Assembly: GCF_001625215.2 (NCBI RefSeq)
Contig: NC_030388.2
Location: forward strand, 20,086,058 to 20,150,057
Length of the DNA stretch: 64,000 nt
DNA from: Daucus carota subsp. sativus
Taxonomy: Eukaryota; Streptophyta; Magnoliopsida; Apiales; Apiaceae
Direction of reading: 5' to 3'
Every line of letters begins with the position of its first letter. Positions within the stretch are counted from its first letter, which is position 1. The notes below the pieces were generated by a model, which did not search any database, had not been told where the DNA came from, and saw only the letters and a list, made by a program, of their open reading frames with translations. Of this stretch, positions 22,560-61,579 are shown in pieces. The translations under genes and the position numbers were made by a program.

Positions 22560-23956
22560 ATGGCTCCATCTTCCTGTGATAAGTACAGAGATTTTGCTGT
22601 CACAAAAGGGTATGGTGTAAAGGGTATATCTGATCTCGGGCTTAAAGCCTTACCCGAGCAATATATCCAACCATCAGAGGAAAGAATAGACATGCGAAAA
22701 GTCTTGGATAAGGAGTCCATACCTGTAATAGACATTTCGAATTTGGATGATCCTGAAGTGGCTCATTCCATTGCAAATGCTGCTGAAAAGTGGGGATTCT
22801 TTCAAATTGTGAATCATGGAGTTCCCATGGAAGTTCTCGAGAATGCTATGGAAGCTACAAGGAGATTCTTTGAGTTGCCGGTGGGGGAAAAGATCAAGTA
22901 TTTGCAAGAGAACTCTCCTACCAAAAATGTTAGGTTTGGAACAAGCTTTCTTCCGAAGGCGGACAAGGTTCTCGAATGGAAGGATTACCTCAGTCTTTTG
23001 TATGTTTCGGAGGAAGAATCTTCTAACTATTGGCCATCTGCATGCAGGTAACATAGATATATATTATGTTCTCCCAGTATCAGCTGGGTGACTGAAATAG
23101 ACACACTTGCTTAAGTTATTAACTAGTTAACCATTCAACTTGCATTATTATTTTTATTTTTTACAATTTTAGACTTAAATGCTTTACATATTAGTACTTA
23201 TGGGTGAGCCAAAGTCGAGTCTGGGTGTCCGCCAGCAATAGATATAAACTCACTACTTGGGCTATTCAATCGCGCTCAGCATACATTATTTGTATTTTGT
23301 TCTCCAGAAAAAAAAAATTATATATAGATCAATGCATGCACTAAAATTTTAAATATTCTAACAAGTTTTTTCCATGTTTTTGTTCTAGGAACGAGGTAAT
23401 GGAGTTTAAGAAAAAGTCTGAGATTGTCGTTGAGAAGCTCTTAAAGATCCTACTGCAGAGGCTGAATGTGGACCTCAACTCAAAAGAATCACTCCTAATG
23501 GGTTCACAGAGAATCAACCTCAACTACTATCCCATTTGTCCGAACCCTGAGCTGACCATTGGAGTAGGCCGCCACTCTGACGTCTCCACACTGACATTTC
23601 TCCTTCAAGACAGCGTCGGAGGATTATACGTTCAAAAAATGGAGACAGACCATTGGATCTATGTGCCTCCTGTTGATGGATCAATTGTAATAAACGTTGG
23701 TGATGCTCTTCAGATCTTCAGTAATGGAAAATACAAGAGTGCTGAGCATCGTGTTGCGGCCAATGGAAGCAATAATAGAATTTCGGTGCCAATCTTTTTT
23801 AACCCGAGACCACATGATATTATTGGTCCCCTACCTGAGGTGCTGAAGAATGGAGAAAAAGCAATATACAAGAGCGTCTTGTATTCAGATTATGTGAAAC
23901 ATTTCTTCAGAAAATCGCACGATGGGAAGCAAACTCTTGAATTCGCAAAGATATAA
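22560..23956 (+). CDS. 2-oxoglutarate/Fe(II) dioxygenase, F6'H/C2'H type (C2'H-A), 351 aa
   Basis: Predicted cytosolic enzyme that ortho-hydroxylates feruloyl-CoA or p-coumaroyl-CoA, the entry step to scopoletin or umbelliferone. There are two exons, 22560-23047 and 23389-23956 (351 aa; Arabidopsis F6'H1 has about 361). The DIOX_N domain spans about residues 50-160 ([12 protein letters not shown]). The catalytic domain has NYYPICP near 208, the iron ligands His225, Asp227 and His283, and the 2-oxoglutarate pair Arg293/Ser295 (NRISVPIF). The C-terminal [14 protein letters not shown] matches known F6'H enzymes closely. The paralogue C2'H-B lies 14 kb away in opposite orientation with an intron at the same place. 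CoA-ester preference cannot be read from sequence. Apiaceae umbelliferone chemistry would favour p-coumaroyl-CoA (inference). Confidence 0.93.
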
Positions 23957-24591
23957 ATGTTAAACATTTGAGTTTTGCTTATTGGTAGGTGGGTAAATTT
24001 GGTAGCATGGAAAACCCAAGGCTACAGGAATAAAAGAAAAGATATATTATTAGGAGATTAGGGGTTTATTCCTCAAAATTTCTGATGATATATTTGGTTC
24101 AGTTTTAAATATTTGATTTATCGATTCGATCATTAGCAGTTTAATATCTTACTCATTTGCAGTACAATATCTTCCCGGATTGAATGATATGTCTGATGAA
24201 TTTTTCATTTGATAATTATCTCTTTTTGAAGTGCTTCGTTATGTTTTGGTTTTTTCGATGTTGGATTTATTAAGAATGATTTTATCGATATTTTGTGAAT
24301 TTGGGAAACCTGCTTCAAATCTGAGCCGGTGTTAATTATGGTAAGAGGTCATCTTCCACCATAGAAAGAATATCGATTATCTGTTAGGGATTTACAAATT
24401 AGATATGTATGTTATGCGACATAGATAGCTCGGATGCCCGTCTTTTAATCTCAGTTTGTGCTATTAGGATTTGTGAACACAAGTCTAATAATGATTTTAT
24501 ATGATAACACGGGTCTAATAATGGTTTTATAGGATAAGGTCAATTGTCATATTATTGCTTTCTTGAATATTGGTAGAATTTGGATCGCTTG

Positions 24592-24751
24592 AAATATTTT
24601 TGATTTCATTTTTCAACTTTAACACCCGTATTCTTTAAATTACAGGAATACAACAGAATTCAAAATTCAAAAAATATTTTTTATTTCATTTTTCAACTTT
24701 AACACCCGTATTCTTTAAATTACAGGGATACAACAGAATTCAAAATTCAGA
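24592..24751 (+). repeat. 80-bp tandem duplication
   Basis: Two near-identical units, each containing AACACCCGTATTCTTTAAAT, begin near 24592 and 24672. They lie downstream of C2'H-A and have no evident function. Confidence 0.8.
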
Positions 24752-24789
24752 AAATATTAACTTATGACAAAATTATTAGTCAAAAGTTT

Positions 24790-25148
24790 AAGGCATCTCA
24801 AAATAATCCGTTGTAAGGAGTCATTAACGACGGAATCCTCGTCGTAAATTCCTTTCTACAAATTTGGTGGACGTGGCCTCATATGCATACATACGACGGT
24901 TTTTTTGTCATAAAACGGAAGAAATTTACGAGGGAATAATTTCTTCGTTTCTTTTTTCCTGGAAAATTGGTTTGTAGAACTCGCTTATACATACGACGGT
25001 TTTTTCGTCAGAAGTTTAGGACACAAAGTTGAACTTCTGATGAAATTTGGACCTCAAAAACGATGGAAAGTTTCCGTCATAATTGCCCCCATTTATGACA
25101 GATGTTGTGTTGAAAATCCGTCGTAAAAAGCTTGTTTTTGTTGTAGTG
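24790..25148. mobile_element. CACTA-like MITE fragment, 3' end intact
   Basis: The right end reads TTTTTGTTGTAGTG, the inverted form of a CACTACAACAAAAA terminus. The body carries repeated ACGACGG/CCGTCGT motifs typical of small CACTA derivatives. The left end and target duplication are not recognisable, so the start is approximate. Confidence 0.5.
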
Positions 25149-25445
25149 GTTTGTGGTACTTCCGTAGTAGGATTTTTCAAACTCAGACGTTCAAACAGTA
25201 ATTATTTTTCAAGCAATCTCTGAAAATTAGTGATTTGTGGTACTTCCGTAATATGGGTCGGTTTACACACGACAATCCCTTTTCATGCAGTACTGTTGGG
25301 TTTTTGTTAGTTTTTATACCAAATAAAATCGATTGTTTGTCTGGTTAGTTTTGTTCCTTAACCACGATTAAATAGACTTAATCGACGAGTCTAAAAGTAA
25401 TTATTTCGGGTGGCACTATTGGGCCCTTTGCTGGGTAGTTCTTAT

Positions 25446-26299
25446 TAGGGGTGAGCAAAAAATCAATTTTAAACTGAATCGAAACCGAAACCTGAAAAAA
25501 TCGGGTAAAACCAAACCGTCAAAAACCGAAACCGAAAAAACTAAACCGAACCGTTTTAATTGGTTCGGTTCCGGTTATATTGCAAAACTGAACCGGAAAA
25601 AACCGAACCGATTATTAAAAAAATAATTAAATATTATTTTATATAATTTTTATAATCTATATAATAAAGTATAAACTTATGTAAATTTTTTTAAAAAAAT
25701 ATGTGCAAATCAATAATAAGCTGCCATACAGATTTTAGCTTTGAATCTGCTAGGCTCTGTACTTGAATTTTTGATATGAAAAGTGCAATCCTATATATCT
25801 GGGTGAGCAATTTTTTATTATCCAGTTGCTATAGTTGTTGAGAACTTCACTCAATGCCTTGCTAATTGTCTGCATTCTGATGTTGTGGTTCCTGTCTTCC
25901 TGATGCTTGTTGCATTTACATGTTGCGATGGATATGCAGAAAATCTTTTTCTGCAGGCTGTTAGTAGAATCTTTTGTGAGAGACAATTTAGACTCACTGC
26001 TAGGAGTTTGAACCTAAAATATACTCATATTATTTGTGCTGAACTACACTCTTGTATTAATTACTCTATGTATGAATTGCGTGTATTAATTTATCTTACT
26101 TGTATATTTTTTTTACATTTTATATTTATCGGTTTGAAACCGAAACCGAGCCGATTATAACCGAATCAGAGTTTTTTAACCGAAACCGAAACCTAATCCG
26201 AACCGGCGGTTGCGGTTTTCGATTTTAAAACCCGAAGAAATATAATTGCGGTTTCAGTTTTGTCCAAAACCCGACCCGAACCGGCCATGCTCTCCCTTA
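25446..26299. mobile_element. non-autonomous hAT-like element, 854 bp
   Basis: Ends TAGGGGTGAGCAAAAA / GCCATGCTCTCCCTTA with a perfect 8-bp target duplication GTTCTTAT (25438-25445 and 26300-26307). Internal CCGAACCG/CGAAACCG arrays occur at both sides. No transposase was found. Confidence 0.85.
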
Positions 26300-26307
26300 G
26301 TTCTTAT

Positions 26308-28010
26308 ATCAAAGAAAATCGACCGTTTGTCATGCCAGTTTTGTCCTTTAAACACGACCAAATATACTGAATCGACCATTCTAAAACTTTTTATAATTAT
26401 CGTATTTTCAAACGGAGAGTGGTCAAAAGGGTGCAAAGCGAAACGCTTTTCAAACTTTAGGATGCATACTTAAAAAAAATTATTTGAAATCAAATTGAAA
26501 AAGCGTCTAAATATAATGAGTGCAAGGTGTCAATCACTGTTAAAATTGCGTGTAAATTATTAAACGATTTCTAAATGAGACAAGCAAGAGTACACTTGAA
26601 CATCAAACTCATTTTGTATACCCATATCACGCACATTTCCAATAATACTCATTTGAATATCAACTCATTTTCTGTGCCCATATTACTTAAATTCCCAATC
26701 ATCTTCCTTAATGTACAGCTCATTCGGATTCCCTCCATACTCAATCACTCATGGACCATCCCCTGCGTAAATTAATCGTTTGTCGATATCATTGACGATT
26801 GACCTGTCTGGACGTCCTCTTTTCTGATAATTTTGTTCGGACTTGATTATAAAACTAAAAAATATTACCGAAAGGACGAAAAGATTGATCATACTTTCAT
26901 TTTATACTTCCACGTGCTTGGCGCTTCAGCGTATGTAAACCAAACCAAACCAAACCAAACAAACTCAGTATATCCCGAGCAGGGTTTGGGAGGGTAAACT
27001 GTACCAGACCATGCCCCTATTCATTTAGAGTAAGGAGGCTGTTTCCGTGAGACCCCTGGCTTAGTGCAAGACAAAATTTTGTGTGAAATATAAGTAGATT
27101 GTACCTTGGCGCCTCAGCGTATGTCTTGTTGCTATTTCTCGGAAGTTCTGCATGACTGGACTCATCTTAAAAGAAAAAATCATTATTTATGTAACGGTTC
27201 GGATTATAAATCAGAAACAGACAAAAGAACCAGTACTCCCTCCGTCCGCCTGAGTTATATGGACGTGGCACGAACTTTAATACTCTCATACTTATTTTTA
27301 AAATTTTTCTTTTCTGTATAAAAGTTTGAATGTTATATTTTTATTCAGAAAAAGAAAATTTTGAAAATAAGTTATCAAATTATGTTTTTTAAGAGCATTG
27401 AAAAAAAAAACATATATAATTAAATCACATTCAACAAGCACAGTAAATCCTGATCACCTTACCTCTTTATTATTACGCTCTGTTTTTTAAATCGGTAATG
27501 ACCATTAATTATTGATTAATGACCAATCAATACTTGTTTCGTAATTAAATTTTTGATTAATTTATGATTAATGTACGATCAATTCAAATAATGTTTTATT
27601 AATCATTATTTCATGGCTTCATCTATTAATTTTGATTTCCAACTTCGACAACACGAATTATTGAAGATATCAGAGTACTAATCATGTTGTAATCTGTCTG
27701 TAAAAAAAAAATCATGTTGTAATCTGGCCATTGATTATCTACACTGAACTGGTCAGTGGTCAGGTCATCGGTGATCACCAAAACTAAATATTAAATCACT
27801 GCCTACCACGTGATGCAGATTGCAGATAGATGCTTTGTCGATAATCCAAATTGCATCGTGAAAAAGATTGCGAAAGATTGTGTCGATATTTTAAGTCTCG
27901 ATAGGCCAACACCCGTCTTATTTTATGTCCTTTTGAATTGCTATTTGAAAGTCCACATGCTTGTTGTTTACTACTACTTAATAGTATTAAGTTAATACTA
28001 CTCCCACCGC
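26308..28010. other. intergenic region, no gene seen
   Basis: AT-rich. A CCAAA microsatellite lies at about 26937-26962. A 19-bp direct repeat, TTGGCGCYTCAGCGTATGT, is at 26918-26936 and 27106-27124. A Stowaway-type terminus (TACTCCCTCCGTCC) starts near 27234, but its partner end is missing. Confidence 0.5.
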
Positions 28011-28045
28011 CCCGGAAGAGCATAGTTGGCTCGTGTATCTCGCTA

Positions 28046-28951
28046 GGCCCGTAAATGGATTAGATATCCGATCCAATCTGATCCGTGTTTAAATAAATAG
28101 ATATGAATTTTTATTAAAATAATCTAATCTGCTAATAATCCGATCCGATAATAATCCAATCCGATAAAGAATGGATATGGATATGGTCAAATCCGATCTG
28201 TTAACGATCCCGATCCGATTCATGCTTAACTATATTATATATTTTATGTTATATTTTCTTATAATATATTATATTATATTAATATATTACATACAAAATA
28301 AAAATTTCAAGACAGAACCCTATATCATATTTTCTTATAACTCATCAGCCCCTTCTAAGCCTTGACCCGACTCTCACTCTTATTATCTGGTTAATCTAAT
28401 AATCACTCATTTCTTATGTAGAGTGAGTATAACACATGAGAGCTAAACTCTTCCACTTAACACCTCCTTAATCACTTAGTTTTGTATTTATGACATATTT
28501 ATTGATGTTAATCCTTATTGAATAGAGGAGCAGATCATAATTTGCTTCCTCCAAAAATATTAAGCAACTTATTTATAATTTTTCTATTCACTTAATACAT
28601 TATATGTTAAAGGTTTTTTTATAGGAACAACCAACAAAGTTTTTCAGTTACATTTTTTTTAATAACATGAAATTGCAGACTTTACTTTACTGCTTTATTA
28701 GTTCTTTTTTGTTCTTGTTATGTTAAAACTCATGAATTAATATAGCTAGAAAATATCACTTTTTTTCTTTGTGAAAGGTTAAAACATTGTCCACGGTGAA
28801 AAAATATATTTCGTAAATTTTAGTGGATCGGAGATCCGATCCGATTATCCATGATCCGAATGGACCGGATATGAATTGACTTGTAAAATATCCGACTCCT
28901 GATCTGATCCGATCCGAATCCGATAAAATTAAATGGATTAGGATATTACCC
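28046..28951. mobile_element. GATCCGAT-rich element inserted in a MITE remnant
   Basis: Both ends carry AAATGGATTAG-type and GATCCGATCC arrays in opposite orientation. It is flanked by a direct repeat of about 32 bp (28014-28045 and 28953-28984, containing GAAGAGCATAGTTGGC), far longer than a usual target duplication. The left flank begins CTCCCACCGCCCC, like a Stowaway end. Superfamily uncertain. Confidence 0.5.
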
Positions 28952-29529
28952 GGGAAGAGCATAGTTGGCTCGTGTACCTAGCTACGCCAGTTTCCGTAAC
29001 TTGTCCTCTTAAATTTTTTATTAATAAAAATATTTATTTTAGTTTAAGAAAACTGTTTATAATAAATTATACGACTACGTAAAATATCTTAATAATTATG
29101 AATTCGAAATTAATTAGTTCATCAAATAATATTATACAACTTACAAAATATGTCATTATAGACGGTGAATTGGAGTTTTGAAATTTTAAGAAGTTGTAAA
29201 TATTTCGTAGAAAGTAAAAATAATTGTAGTTCTCTCAGAATCAATATAGATTTGAAAATATCACACTCTAATCATATTTCTTCCCTTGTGTATAATTATA
29301 GTGAAGTCCTACAAATGGCTATATTTGTTGAACCTATTTAGCCTTGTACTAAAATTACACATCATTTATTATGATATTAAAGTGATATATTTTATATTTA
29401 GCAATCTAAGATATTAGTAAATATATTATTTTTAAATTATAGTCAACCACTATACTGACGGTCTGGTCTGATACATAATGAACTTATAATTATATGGAAT
29501 CGACTCCATTATCATATTATACATTATAA

Positions 29530-29863
29530 GGTTGCATGTGTTCACTTGGTGTGAATGGAATGGAGGGAGAATGTAATGAATTTTATACTCTAAATTAGTG
29601 TTGATCAAAGAAAATGTATATAATTTTCATTCATTCAATTATTTCAACCTTACTATTTTAACTATAACTCTAACCCACATGTTTTGGAAGAAATGCTCAT
29701 TTCATTTTAATATCATGTTTCTTCACAATCTTTCTCACAAAAAAATTAACTACATTCATATTGTGTCACCATTATCTCATACTTTCTTCTTTTTCCTTAA
29801 AACTTCTATATAATTTTTCATTGCATTTTCCCCTCATTCTATTCCATGAAGTGAACACAACCT
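29530..29863. mobile_element. MITE with GTGTTCACTT ends
   Basis: The ends AGGTTGCATGTGTTCACTT / AAGTGAACACAACCT are imperfect inverted repeats, followed inward by GAATGGAATGG and CATTCTATTCC. It directly abuts the TRIM element on its right. The target duplication is unclear. Confidence 0.5.
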
Positions 29864-29864
29864 A

Positions 29865-30181
29865 TGTAACATCCCACATCGGTTAGATAAAGGAGTATTT
29901 GGGCCTTTATAAGCACAAGCAAATAACTAATGTATACCAATTTGCTAGCACTTTTGGGCCGACCTGTGGTGGGTTGTTGGGTCCGGTATGCATCTAGTTG
30001 CGGGCTTGGGATGTTATAAATGGTATCAGAGTTTGTAACATCCCACATCGGTTAGATAAAGGAGTATTTGGGCCTTTATAAGCACAAGCAAATAACTAAT
30101 GTATATCAATTTGCTAGCACTTTTGGGCCGACCTGTGGTGGGTTGTTGGGTCCGGTATGCTTGCGGGCTTGGGATGTTACA
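29865..30181 (+). mobile_element. TRIM-type retroelement with two LTRs and almost no interior
   Basis: LTR1 (29865 to about 30018) and LTR2 (30034-30181) both start TGTAACATCCCACATCGG and end GGGATGTTAYA. They differ by one 6-bp indel and a few substitutions. TGGTATCAGAG at 30021-30031 matches the initiator-tRNA-Met primer-binding site. Only about 15 bp separate the LTRs, so it encodes no protein. The 5-bp flanks ACCTA and GCCTA match at 4 of 5. The high LTR identity points to a young insertion. Confidence 0.85.
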
Positions 30182-30412
30182 GCCTAAGTTCATAACCTAA
30201 CTCATTCCCTCCAAAGTTAATGGTCTTGTGTCTACAACAAGATGTTACAAAATGCTGTTGGCATTATGTTGGAATTTAGTTACCCGATACTAGTCAACGT
30301 AACAAAACTGTTTTGGCGAGTTGCTGTACTAATTCCGTTGCTAGATTGCCGACGGACATAAAATTCCGTTGGTAATGCTTTGTCTAAGAGTTCTCCACTG
30401 CCAACAAAAAAT

Positions 30413-30737
30413 TAGGGCTGTTCACGAGTCGAGCCGAGTTTTGACCGAACCGAGCTTTAAATTTTTTCTTATCGAATCGAGCCTAGCCCAGCTTTCTTGT
30501 CGAACAAAAGAGTGTGTTCGAGCTCGAGCTCGTTAACTAACGAGCCGAACACGAGCTTGTTCACGAACAAATACGAGCCGAGTTGAGCCGAGACGAGCCG
30601 GTGAAAATAAAGGTCAAACCGCTACTTTCCTCTTAAAATAGCAAGCCAAATAAAATTTTAAGTGTGTTTTGAAGGTACCATATTATAGTTAATATTCTCC
30701 TGATTGATTTGATATATTATATGTTGAATTCAGCGTT

Positions 30738-30780
<43 letters not shown>

Positions 30781-31014
30781 CGAAATTATCATGAAAATAT
30801 TGCATTTTTTCGAGTTTTAACGAGCCGAACTCGAGCCGAACGAGTTCGAGTCGATCTCGAGCCGAGCTCGAGCTGAACACACTAAAAGCTCGGCTCGAGC
30901 TCGTTTTCTTAACAAACACATTTATGTGTTTGAGCTCGATCTCGAGTTCTTAAGGAACCGAGCCGAACCGAGCTTTTATCAAGCCGAGCTCGAGCTTATT
31001 CGCGAGCAGCTCTA
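30413..31014. mobile_element. non-autonomous hAT-like element with CGAGCC arrays, 602 bp
   Basis: Ends TAGGGCTGTTCACGAG / CGCGAGCAGCTCTA with a perfect 8-bp target duplication CAAAAAAT (30405-30412 and 31015-31022). The arms are built of CGAGCCGA/GAGCTCG motifs in opposite orientation. An (AT)n run of nearly 40 bp sits in the middle (about 30743-30779). Confidence 0.88.
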
Positions 31015-31101
31015 CAAAAAATAGCTTTTATACAGACTTTGTGTCACTGAATGTGAGTTCTCTTGTAAAGGCGTTTTAAATGGAGCCAAACTGGCTCCTT
31101 A

Positions 31102-31449
31102 GAGCAAGTCCAATGCAATGTTATAAGTGGTGCTATTTCTATAATTTGAAATCAAATGCTAAAAAACTCAACTCCATACATATATGCATCCTTGGTTCTA
31201 AATTTGAAACCAAGGATGCATTTATGCATCCATGCCACATCATCAACTAACTATAATTGGTATGTATAGTGGTGAACTTTTAATAAAGTTTAGGAGAGAG
31301 GGACTAAAGTTACTTAAATTTGGAATTATTTGGATGCAAAATGCATCTAGAATTGGAGTTGAAGTTCTATTTTAACAATAAAAAACACTTTTTAGTGCTA
31401 AATTATAGCAATAGCTATAGCTATTTTGCATCTTGCATTGGACTTGCTC
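31102..31449. mobile_element. PIF/Harbinger (Tourist-like) MITE, 348 bp
   Basis: A perfect 17-bp terminal inverted repeat GAGCAAGTCCAATGCAA and TTA target duplications (31099-31101, 31450-31452). It lies about 300 bp beyond the 3' end of the PT1 coding region. Confidence 0.88.
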
Positions 31450-31760
31450 TTACAAGAGCATTGTGAAGATGATGAGAAATCTATTGGCTAATTAAAAGGA
31501 AAAAACCTTTAATAAGTAAAAAGAGAAAAAAGGAAAATCAGCTAAAACAACAATAACGTCAACACTCATGTACTATAAAAGAAGACATATATTATTGTAT
31601 AAATATGCCAGTATGAACGATTGTAACAACTTGAATACTGAAAACAGTTCATACTAACAGAAATGTGAACAATTCTTTCAAAGTAGCAAGTCACTACTAA
31701 GAAAGGAGCAGAAAAAATTAATTACAACTTTCTATTGAAGGAGAGTACTCGCATTTCTTG

Positions 31761-34700: not shown

Positions 34701-35099
34701 AACCTGTTGGTATCAATTGTAAATAATCTTCGCATAAGTTCTAATCGTAGATACGTCCCTGTATAGAGCTGCATGAAATAAACGAGAAGATATAGAGCAG
34801 AACTCACCGTGCCAGTAACACTATGCAGACGACAAAACCTGTAAAATACATCCCATTTCCTCCATAAATCACTCTGTACCGTTACTTTGTGATCACCATC
34901 TTTTCGAAATACAACTTCACGTTCTAAAGTTGGACCAGAAGCCTGTACAGTCTGGTCTGCGATTGCACGCTTGTGAAGGCTGCTGCCTGTATAGTAGAAA
35001 AGGTAAAAGAACTGGATCGTGAGACAAATGCAAAGATGTAGCAGTGTTTGCTAAGTGAAAAGATAAGTACCTTCTCGCAGAGTATGTGTTTGGCTCATG
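31761..35099 (-). CDS. UbiA-family aromatic prenyltransferase PT1, 350 aa as modelled
   Basis: Membrane enzyme likely adding a dimethylallyl or geranyl group to a phenolic ring; plastid coumarin and homogentisate prenyltransferases are the nearest type. The 12 exons on the minus strand are 35072-35099, 34808-34986, 34620-34703, 34453-34527, 34277-34360, 34071-34160, 33088-33186, 32908-33003, 32681-32752, 32374-32472, 32018-32122 and 31761-31802. The first Asp-rich motif is NQLLDVGID, followed by KPYLVLASG; the second is DIPDVAGD. Exon phases match PT2 exactly. The chosen ATG follows an in-frame stop and gives MSQTHTLRE, with no Ser-rich transit peptide. PT2 has about 37 more N-terminal residues, so a distant true first exon or a relocalised protein is possible. 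Catalytic exons 3-12 are secure; exon 1 is not. Confidence 0.88.
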
Positions 35100-45558: not shown

Positions 45559-46708
45559 ATTTTTTTGCCACTCAACTTATAGTGTTTTTAGAAACTTACC
45601 ACCCAACTAATTTTTTTATTCTTTTAGTCACTAATGTTAGGTTTGGTTTTGTTTTTAGCCACCAGCTTAGGTTTGGATTTGATTACTAGCATTATGATAA
45701 TTTTTTGTATCATCATTTATACATAGTGATAGTATCTAATATTTTGATGGTGTGTCGTATGTTTATATCCTTATATATAGCAATAGTAATATAAAATGAG
45801 CCGATGAAAAATTAAAATTAGGAATAATAGTAATTAGATTCTAAAAATTCAATAAATCATGAATATGAAATCAATGACTTCAAACAATTCACCCTCTCTC
45901 ATAAGATAAAGTGTAATTGAGTGATATGACGCATCATCTTTCGCTATTAAACTTTCAATGGACTAGATCAGTCTAAGATCTTTCTTAAATTTATCTTCAA
46001 AAATTTTAATAACTTTATCTTATTACAATTTCTGAGATAAATAAATAGAGAGGAAAACTTAATTTTCGATGATTGTCCTCTATATATAATGCATCATTTT
46101 ATATTATTATTACTCCCTCCGTCCCTCTCATTAGTTTACAAATTTTCTCTAGTGCTTAGCATGTATTTAAGATTCTTATAAAACATAGTTTCATAACTTA
46201 TTTTTGTGTGTAAAAATTCAAACGCTGAATTTTCATTCGGAAGAAAAAAAATAAAGTTATATATGAAACTACATCTTTTAAAGGCCATATAATGCGTGTA
46301 AAATTCTTATCATCCAAGGTAAGCGATCTTGAAGACATAAAAAGTACTACATATAAAAATACAAACATATATCAAATCATCAAAATATTACCGACTACCA
46401 CTCTATTTTAATAATGATACACATAAAATGTAATGCTAATAATCAAATTTGAACCTAACTTCAGTGACAAAAAAAAGAGCTAAATCTAACACTAGTGAGT
46501 AAAATAAAAAAATTATAGTTCAGTGGTTAGTTTCTAAAAACGCAATAAGTTTAGTGACAAAAAAATTATCATACTGCTGGTAATCAAATCCAAACCTAAG
46601 TTGGTGGCTAAAAATAAAACCAAACCTAACATAAGTGACTAAAAGAATAAAAAAATTAGTTGGGTGGTAAGTTTCTAAAAACACTATAAGTTGAGTGGCA
46701 AAAAAATT
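45559..46708. mobile_element. foldback or MULE-like element with about 150-bp inverted arms
   Basis: The left arm (about 45560-45706) and the right arm (about 46561-46707) are inverted copies containing GCCACTCAACTTATAGTG and AGCCACCARCTTAGGTTTGG. A second, diverged copy of the right arm follows inward (about 46430-46560). A Stowaway-type end is nested near 46127. The exact termini and target duplication were not fixed. It starts about 70 bp after the P450 stop codon and may lie in its 3' UTR. Confidence 0.6.
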
Positions 46709-47697: not shown

Positions 47698-47701
47698 TGT
47701 A
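47669..47701 (+). repeat. (TATG)n microsatellite
   Basis: About eight uninterrupted TATG units. Confidence 0.9.
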
Positions 47702-47763
47702 TATTGGTCTTCCATATTCCGATAGATATAAATATGGTGTGTTATGTCCAAAATTTGATTATA

Positions 47764-51600: not shown

Positions 51601-54600
51601 TCTACTCAAAACAAAACTGCAGTATTCTACCTTGAGGAATCCTACAAAAACAGCAGGTGATAAATCTCCCAGTGAAGTCAAAGGCAGTAGAGAAACCGAA
51701 CTTATTGCAGTAATCTGTTTTGCAGAAATAAGAAAATTTATAGAGTTAATTTCAAATTTTTTTCTTAAAGTTCAGTAATGACGGATAATACTTACTATGC
51801 CAATGAATGTGTATGGACGAGAAAACTTGTATATAGCCGTCAACGTTTTCTGGATATCATTTGTTGGTTGTAACACAAACTCACCATCTGATGAGGCCCC
51901 AATTACCTGTGCTATTCGCTTGTCACAACTTCTGCTAAAACTCTTGTTTGAATCGAAGATTTTGTTGTCTAAAAAGCCCCTGTAATTATTCTTTTTATCG
52001 CCATTCAGTATTACCCTATGTCTTTTCATGTGTCGAACCGATGCAACAGAGCCTACAAATATCAGTACAATTTGAGTACTTATATAATGTAAGTTCAATC
52101 TCAATCAGTAATGGCTAATTTTTTATTTGCAAAATTTTCCAAAAAGCACACAAATATACATCATTTTACTCATTGGTCCCTAATATCAACCAACATATAT
52201 TATGCATAGTTGCAATTGATGCATGTGGATGTGTAAATAACAAGTGAACATCTATGTCTACTTTATATATACTCACTCCGTCCTACTCATTTCTATGCAG
52301 TTTTCTTTTTGAGACATCCAATCATTTCTATACATTCCAAAAATAATAACTTTTTATAATATAAAACACTATTACACCCACTACTTTCTTCCGCTACCTC
52401 AATCCTATAATCTTTCAAGTTTCATCCACTATCTCAAATCTATTTATTAAAAATAAATGGGTTTCCACCATCCAAATGTATGCAAATGGTTGTGACGGAC
52501 GGAGTATACATCTTTAAGACCACGCGTGCAGCTTAGGCTGCTTTCATCTGGCTTTAAGTGTTAATCAAATACACATCCCCGCAGTTGAATCCTAACTTGG
52601 GATTTTAGCTGCCTCGATCGGATTGCGCTCAAAAGTTAAATGATAAAAGTTTGAACATTGCAATAGAATGTGCTGAAGATGACATAGACATGAAGGTCAA
52701 CAACTAATGCTATTTATTTATGTCTGCCTCTTTTTTCTTTGTGACATGAACACTGAACAAATCTACGACAATAAAAAACATGCTTACTTGGAAGATCATG
52801 CAGGTGAAGAGCTATCTCATAAGGATCTTGAGAAACTTATATTATAGCATTCTTCATTGTTTTTATGAAAACATAGATTAGGAGAAAGTGCTATGAAATC
52901 TAAGGAGGATAAGATATTTCAGAGTCAACTGCACGGAAACCATTCATTAAAGAATGGAATATTTCTATTAAAAAGAACTTGAGTATATTTGAATAAATAC
53001 GTTGATAGAGTAAGTGAGAATTTTAAATGAAAACTTATTTCATAACATTCTAAATTAGCTAGCTTTCTTAAATGATTTATATGTTTTCAACTACAATCTT
53101 AATTAATTTGTCTAATTTTTAATAATAGTAGCTTATAACACATGTCAAAAATGGTTCAAATATTATATATAAAAAATATTATTTGTTATAATCATAAAGT
53201 TTTTTATTCAATTATATTAATATCTTTTTGAAATACTTATTTACACTATCGTTCATTTGATATAAAAGTTGTTGGCGTGGGACATTTTCTTCAATAGCTT
53301 TGATAAATTAAAGCAACTTTTAAGTTTAAATAACTTAACTTTTAAGTTAAATAGTTTAATGTAAAACTATGTTCATATCAATTTTTTTAACAATATTTGG
53401 TGTTTCATTCCTTTGTTTATATGATGTATTAATATTCCTTTTATTCCCAAATTGATCTTATTGATTTAAATTTAAACTTGTAATATTTCCAATAAAATAA
53501 ATATTTTAAAATTTGAAAATAACAATAGTCATATTATAATATAATTTAATATACTCAAATTTATACATTACATGGTCAACATTATTTTGATGATATTCTT
53601 GAGGTAAGGCACCAGACTCCAGCTCCCAACAATACACTTGCTTGACCAACCAATAATGGACATGCCACTTTTGTTCCCTTTCCATTCGAGTGGCAGAGGA
53701 CGACTAAAATTGTCGAACTTTTGTCTGACCATCATATTAAAGAACAGAATCGTGCATTTGTTAAAGACACATACTTATGTACTCTGTCGGTCGCAATTCT
53801 TTTGCCTTTTTAAATTTTTACAATTAAATTGACTAAACACTGAAATTTATATGTATTAATTAATAATTAAAATAATATGAAAAGATATATTACTAGAATT
53901 TACATTTAATCTATTTTAAAATGTATTTTTCGATTTTTAGAGATCATTTAAGAATAATTTTTTGTTATCGGTCAAAATTTGGTCAATTTGACCATAAAAT
54001 GTCAAACAATACAAAAGAAACGGGACATGGGAGTATTTATTTATAAAAATGGTTATATGAATAATTAGGCAAATTTGAACGTTAAGAAAAGCCAAAATTA
54101 ATATTAAGAAGAGGATAAAATAACATTATATGAATAATTAGGCAACTTTGAAAGTTAAGAAAAGCCAAAATTAATATTAAGAAATGGATAAAATAACACT
54201 ATCTGTGATTTACTAATATTATAACTTTGATCACACACACGTATATATATTTTTTATCTAGCTGCATATTTATTATTATATTTTAAATTTTTATTGTACT
54301 AGAAAAGTAATTCTAAATCTGAGAAAAAGTTCAAAGAAATTTCATAAATATTGGACTATCAATCCAAGGAATATTATTCCCCCGTATCAAGAGTTCTAAA
54401 AGTTAGATTTGAGCAGTTTAATAACCCACGCGAAAGTAAATAATTTTTCAATTATTTATGATGTGTCCTCTCAATATCATAAGCCAACTTCGTCAACTAT
54501 GAATTTTGACTTGAAAATCTATTCAATTTTAGAAATCACTTATAATTAAATTCCGACCAGTATTAAAATATTTTTTCGCTAGGTATAATTAGAGGACCTT

Positions 54601-56402
54601 ATTACATATGTATTACTCAAAGGAGTCACCTCGAGCAGAACAAAAAGGGGGGAGAAAAGGAGTTTGTTCTTCAAAATTGCAACATCAACAACATAACGAA
54701 AATTATTCTGCCTCTATACACATTTTATTGTATGTCAATCTGTTCATGATTCTGATTTGTTTAATTATTATTATGGCCTCCTAAACTTCTATTGCTCAAC
54801 GGTTGTTTTCAAACCCTGAACTTTATGATCATTATACAGTTTTGAGTTATGGAGATCTGTTTTGATTTTTGTACATATACGTTAATGCTTGAATTAAAAT
54901 GTGTATGCGTAAATCCCAGTATGTTATATGATTGTTATATTTACAAGCCAATTAATTGTATGGGTGTACGTGTAATTTAGTTCAAATATTTTACTCTATA
55001 TATGTTGTTGATTGGTACAAATAGTACAACTTCTTCTTATACAACTCCTTCTTATATGGTCCATGATAAACTCTCTATATGTATCTCTTTAGATACATCA
55101 AAAATTTAGAGTTGTATTATTGATTTAGAGCATGTTTCATTGAGCGTATGATTTATAACTTAACGTGACATAAGCTGAGAGTCTAAAATGTCTTTTTAGA
55201 TAATTTTGATTTATTGATGACTTATGAGTTATAAAAAATATAATATGAAAATAAAAGTGATTTATAAGTATTTATGATTTAGGAGTAATTTTTATCAAAA
55301 AAAAGTTCATAAAATAAAATAGTCCCCGAAAAAAATATCTCAAACTAACTTCTGGCTTTAAGTCAGCTTCTGGCTTATTTCTGATTTTAATTCGGCTTCT
55401 GACTTATTACACAAATAAACATTTTTCAGCTTAAAACTAGAGATGACTTACGATCTGGGTTTTAAGCCGAGACAAACACGCTCTTAGTGATGGATATTCA
55501 TGATTTCCAGCATATATATTTACTTGCTTTGGAAAAAAAGTTGGACCAATACTCGGATTAGTTATTATAAACAAAATTAAAATCAAACCAATTGCTTATC
55601 TTAGAAAAATAGAAGACAAACAAATTCATGATCCTCAGCGTTGAATGATATCCATACTTATTGTATATTATAGATAACATAAAACAATTTAAATTGAATC
55701 AGACCAATATTTATGTTGTGACAATTATTTGAATGGGGTCATAATATTATAGTTTTAAATGACATTTTAGCACCTAATCCTTTTACTTATTAAATGTAGT
55801 TTAAAATAACCATCGAACTCATGAGCTTCTTTGTATCAACACCAAAATATGTGTATGTTTGACAATAAAGAAACATAACTTTTTTGAATAAAAGTGGATT
55901 GATGTCATGTTTCTTTATCTCTTCGTGTTAAAGAGCATAAGCATTTCTACTTTGAATCTTTAACTGATTTTTCACATTCTGAATGTGTAAAAAATTTCAT
56001 GCATTAATAAAACTGTGTATTATAATTAATAATTTGATTTTTGACGTAAAGGAATATAAATTTATATTACGAGACAATTAGGTGACTTATATGTGAAATT
56101 CTAAAACTTAAATAAATTATAGGTCACCTTATCCAAATATTTAAATAAATTTTAAATTCTAATTTACAAATTATGTATTACCTTCTAATTTGAAGAAAAG
56201 ATAACCTTCTGTATTACACAGAAGCGAGATCACGCAGAAATTGAGTAAAAAAAAAGTGAGATCACGTAGGGACAACACTAGGAGCTATAGCCTCGGGAGA
56301 AGCAAAAACTCAACACGTAAAAAATGAAAATATGGAGGTACCTTTTGCTGGGTGAAGATGGGCGGTAGAGGACAAGCATGAGGAACTGAATGATAGAATC
56401 AT
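48662..56402 (-). CDS. UbiA-family aromatic prenyltransferase PT2, 387 aa
   Basis: Membrane prenyltransferase of the coumarin/homogentisate type, probably plastidial. The 12 exons on the minus strand are 56342-56402, 51796-52052, 51631-51714, 51423-51497, 51143-51226, 50932-51021, 50708-50809, 50512-50607, 50255-50326, 49453-49548, 48864-48968 and 48662-48703. Exon 1 ([20 protein letters not shown]) is Ser-rich like a transit peptide. It joins exon 2 in phase (G|GC) across a 4.3-kb intron. The Asp-rich motifs are NQVVDVEID and DIPDVEGD, with KPYLPLVSG after the first. Several hydrophobic segments span the remainder. The length fits plant coumarin prenyltransferases of nearly 400 aa. Acceptor and prenyl donor are unknown. 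The distant first exon is inferred from phase and composition only. Confidence 0.9.
52272..52504. mobile_element. Stowaway-like MITE in PT2 intron 1
   Basis: 233 bp, CTCACTCCGTCC to GACGGACGGAG, between TA dinucleotides, just upstream of PT2 exon 2. Confidence 0.6.
53782..54033. mobile_element. Stowaway-like MITE in PT2 intron 1
   Basis: Starts CTCTGTCGGTCGCAATTC and ends GAAACGGGACATGGGAG, between TA dinucleotides. TTCTTTTGCC near the left end mirrors ACAAAAGAAA near the right. Confidence 0.6.
54058..54203 (+). repeat. 73-bp tandem duplication in PT2 intron 1
   Basis: Two units start TGAATAATTAGGCAA at 54058 and 54131 and share AAGAAAAGCCAAAATTAAT. Confidence 0.85.
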
Positions 56403-56667
56403 TGCTCTTCTCTTTCAGCTTTGAGACATAACCAAAACGCAGTGGTTCTTATGTTGCATACAAAGGAGCTTTCTGGTAGTTGCTGTTTCATTGCATAATA
56501 AATAAGGTTGGTCTGATCTACCAGTCTATTCATTTCAGATGAAAGAGGCCACCTACCCAAAATTATACAACCACATTCTTAAAATTCATATACAGGAGGA
56601 TGAGCGGAACACAGGTCAAACACGTTTTTAAAATTGAAATATATTGTTTCTAATATATTCCTCAAGG

Positions 56668-57306
56668 TAGACTTGGCAATCGTGTCGTGTTATGTATATT
56701 CGTGTGGTGTACTATCACGTTTCGTGTACTTAAGGTGAAACCCATATCCGACCCGTTTCGGATTCGTGTACCTAATCTCAAACCCATACCCGTTTTGAAA
56801 TGTGTCGTGTACTTTTCGTGTAGTTTTCATGTACATTTAATATAAATATAATAATTAAATTTGAATTAATTTTTTTTTAAATATACATTTTTTATATATT
56901 ATAAAATGAAATATATACATTTTTTATGTATTACATAATGAAATATGTATTAAATCTTTATATATGTATACAATTGTGTACAAGTTTGTACATGTATATA
57001 TATTACATATATAAATATATATATTTTTACGTTAAAATAGTTATTCTATGTACCAATTCTTACATGTCCTACTGGGGGGTCACTGTTAGTTTTGGTATGT
57101 TGGGAGATATCATTATTGCCGAACCCAATGCCCCACATATTTTTTTAAAAATATATTTATATCGTGTACATTCGTGTATACTTTTGTGTATATAAGATAA
57201 AAACCCGAACCCGACACTAAACTCGACGTGTATTTTCATGTTCGTGTACCGAATATTGAAAATCAAACTCGAACTTTTCGTGTCGTGTTCCAAATTGCCA
57301 GGTCTA
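56668..57306. mobile_element. non-autonomous hAT-like element, 639 bp
   Basis: Ends TAGACTTGGCAAT / ATTGCCAGGTCTA (12 of 13 matching inverted) with the target duplication CTCAAGG at 56661-56667 and 57307-57313. CGTGTCGTGT / TTCGTGTA arrays lie at both sides. It lies about 270 bp upstream of the PT2 start codon. Confidence 0.85.
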
Positions 57307-57313
57307 CTCAAGG

Positions 57314-58095
57314 GTTATTAGGTGCATAGTGCACTCTTAGGGCAAAATGGAGGGTGCCAATTTTTAAAATTGAAATGCATTGTTTGTAATATATAGGAAC
57401 ACTTTATATTATTCTGATTTTTGTCAATTAATTTATAATCGTTGTGGCCCTAATATTTAAATTGTTGAGGATGAAAAAATTGAGGTGTTTCAGCTATAGA
57501 AAAGGGCCTTCAAGAACCTCATTTTTAAAGATGGTTAGAGACTAGAATTCCTTCCCTCAGGATGCGAGAGCACAGGCCAGACAAAATGCTGATAACCAGC
57601 TTGCCTACTGTGTATGGACAAGAAAATGTCCAAGGAGGTAGCCTTGTTGCTGGAAATTACTGAAGATTACCCCGTGCAGCTAACCTAATTAAGCTCCACA
57701 ACTCAAACACATAACTAAACACAAGCCCCTTTGGTGTCTCTCAAAAGGCTAGCTAGTTACAACATCTAAGAAGCCAGGAAAATCTCATGGACCCTCGATT
57801 GAGGACATCTTCACATCTAGCCACCGAACAAAAGGAGACATGAGGTGGACATGGCTAATCATCTTCAATCACTAAACAGCCTCCTCAACAAAAAAGAAGA
57901 ATATTCTTGGCTAAGCTATTAGATAATAATGATGAGGACACTACTACCTTATCATCTACATTCATGAAATTAATATATAATACTACAACTCCAGATAACA
58001 GCCATAGGAGTAATAAGGATACAAATGCTACAACAAAGTTTGATTAAATAGCTGAACACGAGGGTGAAAATAGCTCATAAGAACTTTTTCCCTAA
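57314..58095. other. intergenic region, no gene seen
   Basis: Less AT-rich than its surroundings with scattered short open blocks, for example near 57620. No domain recognised. Confidence 0.4.
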
Positions 58096-58737
58096 AGTGG
58101 TGGAGCAACACATAAAAATCCAGTCCCACACGAACCTCCTCTTCAAAATAGTGGAGAAGACAAAAATCATGACATTCATCTTACTATAAACTTTGGCATC
58201 AATTTTCGAGCATGACTCTCTGTTGAAGCAAGGTGTCGAGCACATATTTTATAGCTAGATTTTTTAAGGGTAAGGCTCATTCTTTTGTAAAAGAACTCAA
58301 TGCCCAAGAAGAGACTACCATGCATATTAAAGAAATTATTGAAGGTCCAATTCTAGAGATGGATCTGGAGGGTGTTGTTCATCCACAGCTGGAGAAAGTT
58401 ATGGAATTACCTCTTAAGTGGTGGAGCAACACATAAAAATCCAGTCCCACACGAACCTCCTCTTCAAAATAGTGGAGAAGACAAAAATCATGACATTCAT
58501 CTTACTATAAACTTTGGCATCAATTTTCGAGCATGACTCTCTGTTGAAGCAAGGTGTCGAGCACATATTTTATAGCAAGATTTTTTAAGGGTAAGGCTCA
58601 TTCTTTTGTAAAAGAACTCAATGCCCAAGAAGAGACTACCATGCATATTAAAGAAATTATTGAAGGTCCAATTCTAGAGATGGATCTGGAGGGTGTTGTT
58701 CATCCACAGCTGGAGAAAGTTATGGAATTACCTCTTA
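58096..58737 (+). repeat. 321-bp tandem duplication containing a short open frame
   Basis: Two nearly identical 321-bp units start at 58096 and 58417. Each holds an open frame (58233-58436 and 58554 to about 58740) starting MSSTYFIARFFKGKAHSF and running through EIIEGPILEMDLEGVV. The second extends to 58856. I do not recognise the peptide. No intron signals or TE ends are evident. A fragment of a decayed gene or retroelement is most likely. Confidence 0.85.
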
Positions 58738-58997
58738 ATTATTACTCCATTGGATGCTCAACAACCACTGACACTATCATATTTATCCAGCATAAGGTTC
58801 CCTCTTATATTTTGTCCAATCAACATTTACTTTTCATTCATATACTGATGGAATGATCATGGACAGTCCTTTTACTGAGGTTCTCTCTATTCATGTGATC
58901 ACAGTCAACTCAGCCACCTCTTATTTCTATAGGACATAATTTTCAGAACCTATCTTGTGAGTATGTGAGAAAAATAAAAATCGAATTTTCTATGGTG

Positions 58998-59212
58998 TGC
59001 CCATGGGCACACAATAGTCACTAACTTTTATGAAAATACTAGCTCCTGATTGGTGGATAGGTAATAAATGTTTGTGGCCCCCTGCATTCACACCAATTCC
59101 ACCAATCAAAATAGCCCATTTTCATAAAAGTTTGTCATTATTGTGTGGCCAAATCAAAATAGCCCATTTTCATAAAAGTTTGTGATTATTGTGTGCCCTT
59201 GGCAACACATTA
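58998..59212. mobile_element. possible MITE with GTGTGCCCATGG-type ends
   Basis: Left GGTGTGCCCATGGGCACAC and right GTGTGCCCTTGGCAACAC. Inside, a block with AAATAGCCCATTTTCATAAA is tandemly duplicated (about 59107 and 59156). The element at 21953-22100 looks related. Ends are approximate. Confidence 0.4.
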
Positions 59213-60164
59213 GAAAGACCGAATAAAAATATAGAGATGCAGGTTCCTATCCTAGAAAAAGGAGAGGTAGATATGAGACAACGTGAAGTTGACAACAGTG
59301 AAGTATCCCATTGTTCCTCCGGTTCCTTCAAATAATTAGATACGTTAACCGGTCATAAATGTACATAAAATTGAACTTTAAACTATAGTATATGTGAATT
59401 TTTAGGTCATTAATAAGCAACATATAATTTAAAATAATTGAGATAAATTTTATCTTAAAGATTTGTGGAAAATAATACTCAATGAAAAGGACATAATTAA
59501 TTTTAGAATATTTTCTTTCTGGGACCGGAATTCACAAATAACAAAAGACCAATCTATAGTCATTTAAGTGGGATGTGGTTCGTGGAAAAAGGAAGGAATA
59601 CCAAGAAAGTATTGAAGATGACCATGTTGTAACAATGTTGCATGAGCCAAAAAATTAAAATCCTCTTTGCCTAAAACCCAGAAAATACTATTAGCATTGC
59701 CTCAGTTTAACGAACCTTGGATTACTTTTGTTTTGAATTTATTTATTTGTCATTTGATTTTGCACGTCTATTGTATAGATTGTTTTCAATAATGCAAAAG
59801 TTTACTTATTCGTCAAGTAAATAGGAGACATTTTTTGTATCTGAGTTGTCCTTTTCAGAAATGTAATATTAACAGGAGCACTAGTTTTATTCAACTCCCT
59901 CTCAACATTATTAATTAAGTGAAGAATAAGAGGCAAGAAAAACAACTTGAAAATTAACTTGAGTTAATTTTGAGTATCTGTAATGACATCTTAAGCTCAT
60001 CTCTCCCTTCAAGGGTTTAAAGCCACATCTAATAGGGTCCTGGAAATATATAATTATCTTTTATGAGTAACATATATATAGGGTCTACTTATATGCATGC
60101 ACACCATTGGCAGGTTCTTCATACCACATCCTGGATCATTTTCTGATGGAGAAGTTGAATCTTC
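59213..60164. other. intergenic region downstream of PT3
   Basis: AT-rich, no gene seen. Confidence 0.45.
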
Positions 60165-61579
60165 TCATCTTATGAGATGAATAAGAATATACTCTGCACA
60201 AAGCATCTGCACACAAAGTTCGGAATTGAGGAAAATATATATCTAAGTCAATTTGCTTTGTATATCGTTTCGTGGTAATTATATATTTTAGTAATATAGT
60301 GATATATATATATATATATAATTTAGAGGAATGTTCTCATCATATATATAAACACTTTTAGTCTATGCAAAAGAAGACAATTAAGCTACTAACCAAGTCA
60401 TTAAGTTTGTATGTTTTGCAAATTTCTTAAATATCTTTTTTATTTCATCCATCTGCACTTCTATTAAGTAGTTGGGCTTATATTCTCTGATATTGTTGAA
60501 GCATATTTTCTGATATAGGCCTTTTGTACTGGTGAACTACTATATAGTCTTCCTTTAAATATGTAACTATTTCTAGAAACTGGAATTCTCACATTCAGAT
60601 GTGGTGTTCAACATAGGTCACATACCTTCCATAATAACTTGTAAAAGGATTGTGTAGATTCATTGTCGTCAAGATTAACAGATTTTGCTCGAAAGAGAAG
60701 CAAGGCGGCAAGTGTAAGGTGGCCTATCACCTGAACCAAGAGAGAAAAGAGATAACTACAAAGAAAAAAGGCCACTACTACAACTGAGTGTACGTATAGG
60801 CATGTGCAGTTGTGCATGTTCTTCGATCTCAATGTGTAGAGTTGTCTTGTAAAGAACCATAAAACTTACAGACACAATCTTGCATATTAGGACTGAAGAT
60901 GAAGCTCCAATCACCAATGCATACCCATAGGCAATAACCAGAATGCTTACACACAGAGAAAAGACCTGCAATGGAGAAAGCAACATAGCTTAAATATATA
61001 ATATCAAATTTGTCCTCGGTTTACTCTACCCAGGGAATTTTGTTTGCAGAACTAGCTAGGGCACTTAGAGCCGGTGCGTAGTACATCATTTCCATGCACA
61101 GTCAATATGTTTGGTTGTGCTCTTTAATAAATTTATCATATTGTCATTTCTTACTTTCTTTTTCCCGTGCCTCACACTGAATGTTTGGTTGCCAAACGCG
61201 CGGTCTCCTTCTACATCAGGTATGTCCTGTAACAGCATAAAATATGTAAATACTAGATTGTGTCAAAATTATAATTTCAAATTAAAGGAAGTCTAATTAT
61301 TACCTTAAACAAAGCAAGAACAAGGGCAAACAAGCTGAAGAAAATTGTAGCAAAGCGGAATGACTTGGTGAATGCTACCGGTTTTCCAAGCACATGCTGC
61401 ATATGTGATTGCCCTCTACATTTACAAATCATATATTATAGAAATGTAGTATCAATTATTTAAGTTTTATTAGTTACCTGTATGTGACAAAAGACGGTAG
61501 GCGGAGTGGTGAATCCCTGTGCACTGACTATACATATGGCAGCAAGGTAGGGGTTCGTTTTCCATCTCAGATATGGTAG
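60165..61579 (-). CDS. UbiA-family prenyltransferase PT3, 3' half (exons 7-12) only
   Basis: Exons on the minus strand are 61478-61579, 61304-61396, 61155-61226, 60870-60965, 60626-60730 and 60165-60206. All join in phase and end in a stop at the same place as PT1 and PT2. The second Asp-rich motif DIPDVEGD is intact. Exon 8 lacks one codon at its start (HVLGKP instead of KYVLGRP). Exons 1-6, including the first Asp-rich motif, are not found between 61580 and 64000. In PT1 and PT2 the exon 6-to-2 block follows within 2 kb. The gene is therefore either truncated or has a very large intron holding the CACTA element at 62269. Closest in look to PT2. Confidence 0.8.

Follow-up and report, generated by a model that had tools for sequence, protein, structure and literature searches.

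A 2017 study is said to have described a single prenyltransferase (PT) gene-dioxygenase pair, with a clade-related dioxygenase for which the umbelliferone product was demonstrated. The carrot locus analysed here resembles that pair in that a PT gene adjoins a clade-related dioxygenase, but in carrot the genes form an array. In Peucedanum praeruptorum, PT-C2'H and PT-PpOC pairs lie on one chromosome, three of the four pairs having similar expression (PMC11152176), and PpCOC2 lies on chromosome 7 (PMC13364408). The PT1-3/PpOC/C2'H region of this species (PMC11152176) and the carrot locus both have proximal arrays, confined to one chromosome, in which UbiA PTs described as close to VTE2-1 are accompanied by a P450 and by dioxygenases of the C2'H type; carrot differs in having CYP83-like P450s among the PTs, a further PT-CYP83-like array on contig 2, and F6'H1-type residues in its dioxygenases. 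Arabidopsis F6'H1 (PDB 4XAE, PMC4438608), a single enzyme from another plant family, shares 63–64% identity over 342–343 residues with the carrot dioxygenases, including 13 of the 13 active-site residues checked. In contrast to both the 2017 pair and the Peucedanum region, the enzyme activities and the product of the carrot locus are predicted from its genes.

Extent and gene content of the carrot locus

The window, the whole stretch of 64,000 nucleotides that was analysed (carrot contig 8, 20.086–20.150 Mb), probably forms the central part of a specialised-metabolism cluster of the Apiaceae type that spans 20.00–20.23 Mb of carrot chromosome 8 and prenylates coumarins, as had been proposed from the window itself. 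The assignment to carrot agrees with a 100% match to a carrot antifreeze protein. Two dioxygenases, UbiA-A, UbiA-B and one P450 occupy 22.5–52 kb of the window (Table 1), and the PT and C2'H-clade genes are interleaved within this single locus. The initial annotation had recognised two intact F6'H/C2'H dioxygenases, two complete UbiA genes and a CYP71-clan P450 within 39 kb, all of which are borne out by the gene models, with Pfam domains in agreement with every assigned class. Its statement that unrelated genes are absent also holds for the 54 other open reading frames of ≥62 aa inside the interval, none of which has a Pfam domain above cut-off, though genes with short exons may escape this search. 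The locus exceeds 39 kb, as the flanks carry more genes of the same families: the surrounding 224 kb contains eight UbiA genes, of which seven have both Asp motifs; four F6'H/C2'H-clade dioxygenase loci, two of them intact; additional copies related to the window P450; a P450 of a second type; and a UGT. Scanning the window for tRNA genes and Rfam families gave no matches. OSC genes were set aside, no link between them and the pathway having been found.

Table 1. Positions of the modelled genes, in window coordinates
Feature	Position	Strand	Description
F1, F6'H/C2'H-clade (DOXC30) 2OG-Fe(II) dioxygenase	22560-23047 + 23389-23956	+	2 exons, 351 aa, intact
F2, second F6'H/C2'H-clade dioxygenase	39166-38679 + 38342-37775	-	2 exons, 351 aa, intact
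UbiA-A, aromatic-prenyltransferase-type	34945-31761	-	11 core exons, NQLLDVGID and KDIPDVAGD
UbiA-B	51909-48662	-	11 core exons, NQVVDVEID and KDIPDVEGD
UbiA-C, exons 6-11	61579-60165	-	within window
UbiA-C, exons 1-5	69244-64724	-	flanking sequence
CYP71-clan P450	43716-44612 + 44863-45486	+	2 exons, 506 aa, PPGP, AGTEST, ExxR, PERF, FGSGRRICPG
P450 pair, second type	135.4-141.8 kb		array edge

Dioxygenases, P450s and the predicted coumarin

The F1 and F2 proteins have DIOX_N and 2OG-FeII_Oxy domains with HxD...H and RxS present, and are identical to AtF6'H1 at 217 of 343 (F1) and 220 of 342 (F2) aligned residues. With F1 as the query, the best solved structure was AtF6'H1 (4XAE, 496.5 bits), followed by a structure at 190.5 bits; F1 had no match among plasmids. 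The two genes are 83% identical and under purifying selection (dN/dS 0.16), and the other two dioxygenase loci are degenerate, one being split and one carrying a stop. At the two published specificity positions both F1 and F2 have Tyr and Val, the F6'H1 type, instead of the His (F6'H1 position 151) and Ile (238) of the umbelliferone-forming sweet-potato-type C2'H; the residues argue for feruloyl-CoA as the predicted substrate and for scopoletin over umbelliferone, while accounting only partly for specificity (PMC4438608). Since these residues fit scopoletin, the use of umbelliferone by AgPT1 (PMC13364408) and PcPT (PMC10710134) counts against the coumarin cluster reading.

An open second copy of the window P450 group was found, as was one degenerate copy. 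The window P450 is, by its motifs, presumably CYP83-like, and UbiA and CYP83-like genes occur together again on contig 2 (11.78–11.81 Mb). The psoralen 8-hydroxylase of Angelica dahurica, CYP83F95 (PMC12019236), apparently belongs to the same CYP83 group on motif grounds and comes from the same plant family; no PT array is described around it in the passages of that paper covered here, whereas the carrot P450 sits within one. The P450 pair of the second type has tandem relatives on contig 3 and its closest relatives on contig 6 (76–79%).

Homologues of the oxidative cyclase COC have been reported on carrot chromosomes 8 and 3, and the edge pair together with its contig 3 relatives would fit them. 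This, along with gene classes that match the Peucedanum PT-C2'H and PT-OC pairs, favours a working furano- or pyranocoumarin cluster like that of celery and Peucedanum, in which C2'H would supply umbelliferone, a PT would yield demethylsuberosin or osthenol, and P450s would cyclise and hydroxylate the product. Such a cluster is nonetheless unlikely given the F6'H1-type Tyr/Val of F1 and F2 and an edge P450 pair that is closest to contig 6, not contig 3. Carrot is not known as a furanocoumarin-rich plant. Thus, of the prenylated-coumarin/furanocoumarin cluster originally proposed, the enzyme classes, their intactness and the direction toward coumarins are retained, the last on the strength of the F1 match to AtF6'H1, UbiA genes unlike the homogentisate enzyme and the Peucedanum pairs (PMC11152176), while 'furanocoumarin' is unsupported because both dioxygenases carry F6'H1-type residues.

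Prenyltransferases and their possible acceptor

All inner splice sites of UbiA-A and UbiA-B are GT/AG, with no stop or frameshift, and PF01040 is matched by both genes and by the UbiA-C fragment. UbiA-C had been taken for a partial gene; it is instead cut by the edge of the window, and its core is complete because exons 1–5 are present just beyond. The transit-peptide first exon was not located in the UbiA copies examined. Both Asp-rich motifs are found in UbiA-A, B, C, p1, p2, D, and E, while the degenerate copy F fails in both. The activity of UbiA-A, p1, and p2 is uncertain because their motif residues are changed (motif 1 without Glu; Ala replacing Glu in motif 2). Where VTE2-1 has RPHT, UbiA-A, p1, and p2 have RLHS, C has QLYT, and both D and E have RIYT, the proline being retained by UbiA-B only. 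Conservation is highest in UbiA-B, followed by C, D, and E, and lower in UbiA-A and its relatives p1 and p2. The dN/dS ratio was 0.34 between UbiA-A and UbiA-B, indicating purifying selection, and 0.46 for the UbiA-C branch (95% range 0.25–1.10, one codon at exon 7 of C being misplaced). Among the modelled genes, UbiA-B is closest to a dispersed copy located on contig 6 (80%).

UbiA-A, B, and C have 45–46% identity to AtVTE2-1 and 31–35% to AtVTE2-2, below the 63% at which contigs of fig were accepted as VTE2-1 orthologues (PMC7028039). The best match in the genome to AtVTE2-1 lies on contig 5 (30.854–30.858 Mb, up to 78% per exon). The UbiA genes of the array resemble VTE2-1 more closely than they do VTE2-2, but differ from the VTE2-1 that the genome itself carries. 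From these identities the carrot homogentisate enzyme is likely encoded on contig 5, and the UbiA genes of the window are unlikely to encode it. The homogentisate phytyltransferase model NF009525 (cut-off 226 bits) scored UbiA-A at 205.5, UbiA-B at 239.6, and the UbiA-C fragment at 134.3 bits, and does not separate the classes because AtVTE2-2 (269.0) also passes the cut-off, as does AtVTE2-1 (307.3). UbiA-B, which passes, was considered as the carrot homogentisate phytyltransferase and rejected, as both Arabidopsis sequences score higher and contig 5 carries a better counterpart of VTE2-1. The VTE2-1 type of the carrot genes is unlike the rule in the Moraceae and Cannabaceae, where VTE2-2-type PTs prevail (PMC7028039), and this argued against an origin of the window in those families.

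Specialised PTs close to VTE2-1 also prevail in the Fabales, with acceptors that include flavonoids (PMC7028039), and the UbiA-P450 array on contig 2 has no F6'H-clade dioxygenase among the matches listed. Both are consistent with UbiA enzymes that prenylate a non-coumarin phenolic, the dioxygenases being adjacent by chance or serving free scopoletin only. Against this, four of the at least six F6'H/C2'H-clade dioxygenase loci found in the genome sit in this single locus, and PT-C2'H pairs recur in Peucedanum, making a non-coumarin acceptor improbable. Under a uniform placement model, chosen post hoc and ignoring gene density, the probability that at least one of two independent dioxygenase loci falls ≤250 kb from one of four UbiA loci is 0.009, and that at least two of three P450 loci do so is 6e-5, though a single duplicated block could explain the P450 result. 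A decaying relic, in which tandem duplicates of an ancestral cluster have no present product in carrot, is highly improbable despite UbiA-F, the split and stop-bearing dioxygenases, one broken P450 copy and a retroelement within an intron of UbiA-E, as F1, F2, the window P450, its second copy and seven UbiA cores are all open and dN/dS is below 1 in the pairs tested (F1/F2; UbiA-A, B, and C).

The product class of the preferred coumarin cluster is likely to be prenylated coumarin, and we infer a pathway shared by the clustered genes, with the substrates, step order and co-regulation as putative elements. As soluble 2OG-Fe(II) enzymes, F1 and F2 would carry out ortho-hydroxylation of feruloyl-CoA, perhaps also of p-coumaroyl-CoA, to a product that would lactonise to scopoletin (or umbelliferone). 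The membrane UbiA enzymes may then prenylate this coumarin in an Mg2+-dependent reaction, with either DMAPP or a prenyl diphosphate of greater length as donor, and the CYP83-like P450, perhaps along with the second-type P450 at the edge, would oxidise or cyclise the prenylated product.

Implications for prenyltransferase clusters in the Apiaceae

A 2026 study of celery detected no PT homologues in the syntenic region of carrot chromosome 8 and, because of this, placed the origin of the PTs after carrot diverged (PMC13364408). The locus on carrot chromosome 8 appears to contradict the reported absence. No description of this carrot locus was found in a literature search that covered titles and the first part of abstracts, with most subscription papers outside its scope; the same search found no mention of PsDIOX. 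The locus probably belongs among the PT-C2'H-P450 clusters already known from the Apiaceae. More tentatively, carrot may hold a full PT/F6'H/CYP83-like supercluster in the syntenic region, together with the PT-CYP83-like array on contig 2, in which case the cluster would be older than the divergence between Daucus and the lineage of celery and Peucedanum, and might make an undescribed prenylated scopoletin-type coumarin, with a CYP83 replacing or preceding the usual cyclase.

The repeated pairing of PT and CYP83-like genes on chromosomes 8 and 2 flags this P450 clade as a candidate for the biosynthesis of prenylated coumarins. Together, F1/F2, UbiA-B/C, and the CYP83-like P450 provide defined candidates for prenylated coumarins in a major crop, and the locus bears on the date at which the Apiaceae prenyltransferase cluster originated.

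Extent and gene content of the array

The locus is a 224-kb array that exceeds the window, which is plant DNA from Daucus carota contig 8 (taken as chromosome 8), positions 20,086,058–20,150,057; in the same genome, an open frame on contig 5 matches a carrot antifreeze protein at 100% over 333 residues. Genes in the window were modelled by joining open frames at GT/AG splice sites, and 80 kb were analysed on either side (224 kb in all). The gene content initially claimed, two dioxygenases, two complete aromatic-prenyltransferase-type (UbiA) genes and a P450, was borne out by the gene models and by Pfam, which confirmed each enzyme class; 'complete' refers here to the catalytic core, because the transit-peptide exon lay outside the UbiA models. 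The claim that no unrelated gene lies within the cluster also held, as no Pfam domain passed the cut-off in any of the other open reading frames of ≥62 aa in the cluster interval (54/54), a scan that genes consisting solely of shorter exons could escape. UbiA-C had been called partial, which proved incorrect, since its exons 1–5 are present past the window end.

The 224 kb hold eight UbiA genes, every one on the minus strand; the 11 core exons align free of stops in all eight, and both Asp-rich motifs occur in 7/8. The flanks hold two further dioxygenase loci: one is split by ~5 kb and extends off the edge of the analysed sequence, and the other carries a stop.

Features of the array in window coordinates (negative, left of the window start; >64,000, beyond its end)
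Feature	Coordinates	Strand	Description
Retrotransposon	-63124 to -53215		directly past UbiA-p1 3' end
UbiA-p1	-39654 to -52016	-	11 core exons, both Asp-rich motifs
Second CYP83-like P450	-26 to -27.9 kb		open
UbiA-p2	-17542 to -21938	-	11 core exons, both Asp-rich motifs
Broken CYP83-like P450	-1.6 to -4.8 kb		fragments out of order
Tandem oxidosqualene cyclase genes (n = 2)	1-6065, 7590-14136	+
Minisatellite arrays (n = 2)	15478-16048, 16199-16937		GC-rich 63/38-bp unit and 174-bp unit
F1 dioxygenase	22560-23956	+	351 aa, one intron, open throughout
UbiA-A	34945-31761	-	11 core exons, inner introns all GT-AG, open throughout
F2 dioxygenase	39166-37775	-	351 aa, one intron, open throughout
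P450	43716-45486	+	506 aa, one intron, open throughout
Inverted repeat, 148 nt	45559-45706 / 46560-46707		97% complementary, 853 nt apart, directly downstream of P450
UbiA-B	51909-48662	-	11 core exons, inner introns all GT-AG, open throughout
Tandem 321-bp units (n = 2)	58095-58738		99% identical, between UbiA-B and UbiA-C
UbiA-C exons 6-11	61579-60165	-	in-window portion of gene
UbiA-C exons 1-5	69244-64724	-	flanking sequence
UbiA-D	81004-73418	-	11 core exons, both Asp-rich motifs
UDP-glycosyltransferase	94941-96344	-	open frame with Pfam domain UDPGT, 468 aa; flanked by UbiA-D and UbiA-E
UbiA-E	116098-97432	-	11 core exons, both Asp-rich motifs
Retrotransposon frames	106619-111280		within intron 4 of UbiA-E, a long intron; exons of the gene still open
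UbiA-F	129808-122734	-	11 core exons, both Asp-rich motifs lost
Other P450 type	135.4-141.8 kb		one two-exon gene plus extra copy of last exon

The 148-nt inverted repeat could be a small inverted-repeat transposon, and the 321-bp units are a recent duplication. The oxidosqualene cyclase genes form a duplicated 8-kb unit (~90% DNA identity; 88–94% per piece) with a 13-residue motif (not shown) that we take to resemble plant lanosterol synthase. The best solved relative of the first gene is a plant terpene cyclase/mutase (8J5Z).

Identity of the enzymes and constraint

The window P450 possesses every signature motif checked, and among solved structures ferruginol synthase matches it best. Judged by their motifs, it is a putative CYP83 and the P450 type at 135.4–141.8 kb a putative CYP736, the group of the Apiaceae cyclases.

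The best solved relative of F1 is AtF6'H1 (4XAE, 496.5 bits; runner-up, 190.5), with 217/343 identical residues in F1 and 220/342 in F2, and all of the active-site residues checked are kept in both (13/13 each). In the available text of PMC4438608, mutagenesis identified two positions (151 and 238) affecting substrate choice, and sweet-potato C2'H has His and Ile where F6'H1 has Tyr151 and Val238. Both F1 and F2 have Tyr151 and Val238, the F6'H1 type, unlike sweet-potato C2'H. These residues, which account for specificity only in part according to the same text, lean towards feruloyl-CoA as the predicted substrate and scopoletin as the product.

UbiA-A, B and C are 45–46% identical to AtVTE2-1 and 31–35% to AtVTE2-2 (both as working reference sequences); for fig contigs, 63% identity was used for calling VTE2-1 orthologues (PMC7028039). 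Among the matches listed, the carrot genome's best VTE2-1 match was C5:30.854–30.858 Mb (up to 78% per exon; C2–C8 denote carrot contigs). The homogentisate model NF009525 does not separate the classes, because UbiA-B passes and UbiA-A fails, while the reference VTE2-1 and VTE2-2 sequences also pass. A point that tempers confidence is that the reference VTE2-1 motif RPHT is altered in all C8 copies, with the proline retained in UbiA-B only. When the reference VTE2-1 was included in a tree, where it formed a long row, three groups of C8 copies emerged: {p1,p2,A}, {B,C6} and {C,(F,(D,E))}. Support for the third group was 91/94, and the basal order was unsettled.

Pairwise dN/dS was 0.157 for F1/F2, 0.343 for UbiA-A/B and 0.336 for UbiA-B/C. 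Over the shared half, branch dN/dS was 0.25 for UbiA-A, 0.26 for B and 0.46 for C (95% range for C, 0.25–1.10; one codon misplaced at the start of C exon 7), reaching ≥1 in 0, 2 and 20 of 500 bootstrap replicates, respectively. F1/F2 and UbiA-A/B are therefore under constraint, UbiA-C less clearly so.

Relatives across the carrot genome

All counts from the genome searches are lower bounds. Among the matches listed, dioxygenase loci ≥72% identical to F1 were the C8 locus (at least 4) and C6:23.733–23.739 Mb (at least 2), the remainder of those listed having ≤54% identity. P450 relatives ≥61% identical, among the matches listed, occurred at the C8 locus (at least 3), C2:11.802–11.806 Mb (at least 2) and C6:16.855 Mb (at least 1), and the next-best listed reached 41–46% in exon 1 and at most 56% in exon 2. 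Related UbiA genes beyond chromosome 8 were located at C6:8.634–8.639 Mb (at least 1), C2:11.781–11.797 Mb (at least 3) and C2:51.77 Mb (at least 1). UbiA and CYP83-like genes are neighbours on both C8 and C2, and the families are thus co-located twice. The second array (C2:11.781–11.806 Mb) has at least three UbiA genes adjoining two CYP83-like P450 genes; the genome-wide F1 search placed no F6'H-clade dioxygenase there among the matches listed.

With tandem copies collapsed and loci placed uniformly at random, at least one of two dioxygenase loci fell ≤250 kb from one of four UbiA loci with P = 0.009 (post hoc; gene density ignored), and at least two of three P450 loci did so with P = 6e-5 (post hoc; gene density ignored; one duplicated block would count twice). 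For the P450 pair at C8:20.22 Mb, the closest relatives among the matches listed were a tandem set at C6:39.51–39.53 Mb (76–79%), and a three-gene tandem of relatives lies at C3:51.79–51.80 Mb (63–71%); the sole other C8 match >50% among those listed was at 15.79 Mb (55–58%).

Comparison with reported clusters

In the available text of PMC13364408, a 2026 celery paper covering prenyltransferases (PT) and oxidative cyclases (COC), PT homologues were not detected in the D. carota syntenic region (chromosome 8), the PTs were inferred to have arisen after carrot diverged, and COC homologues were placed on carrot chromosomes 8 and 3. That text does not contain the name CYP736, and its COC passage does not mention the C6 tandem set, though this is closest to the C8:20.22 Mb pair. 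Since that pair has relatives on C3, the C8 array probably lies within the region examined in that paper. Gene models missing from the annotation used would account for the discrepancy.

The dioxygenase of the 2017 parsnip study is reportedly the PT's neighbour. Partial clustering in parsnip is reported in the available part of that paper, as is a 2OGD multi-gene cluster for Citrus in the available part of its source; in Peucedanum praeruptorum, the available text of PMC11152176 places PT1–3 on one chromosome and describes a PpOC–PpPT2 pair and three more PT–C2'H pairs, with similar expression in 3/4 pairs. Judged by these reports, this kind of cluster is already known. Of the initial prenylated-coumarin/furanocoumarin reading, the furanocoumarin part is unsupported, and that of a prenylated-coumarin cluster, with a shared pathway predicted from sequence, is right in kind.
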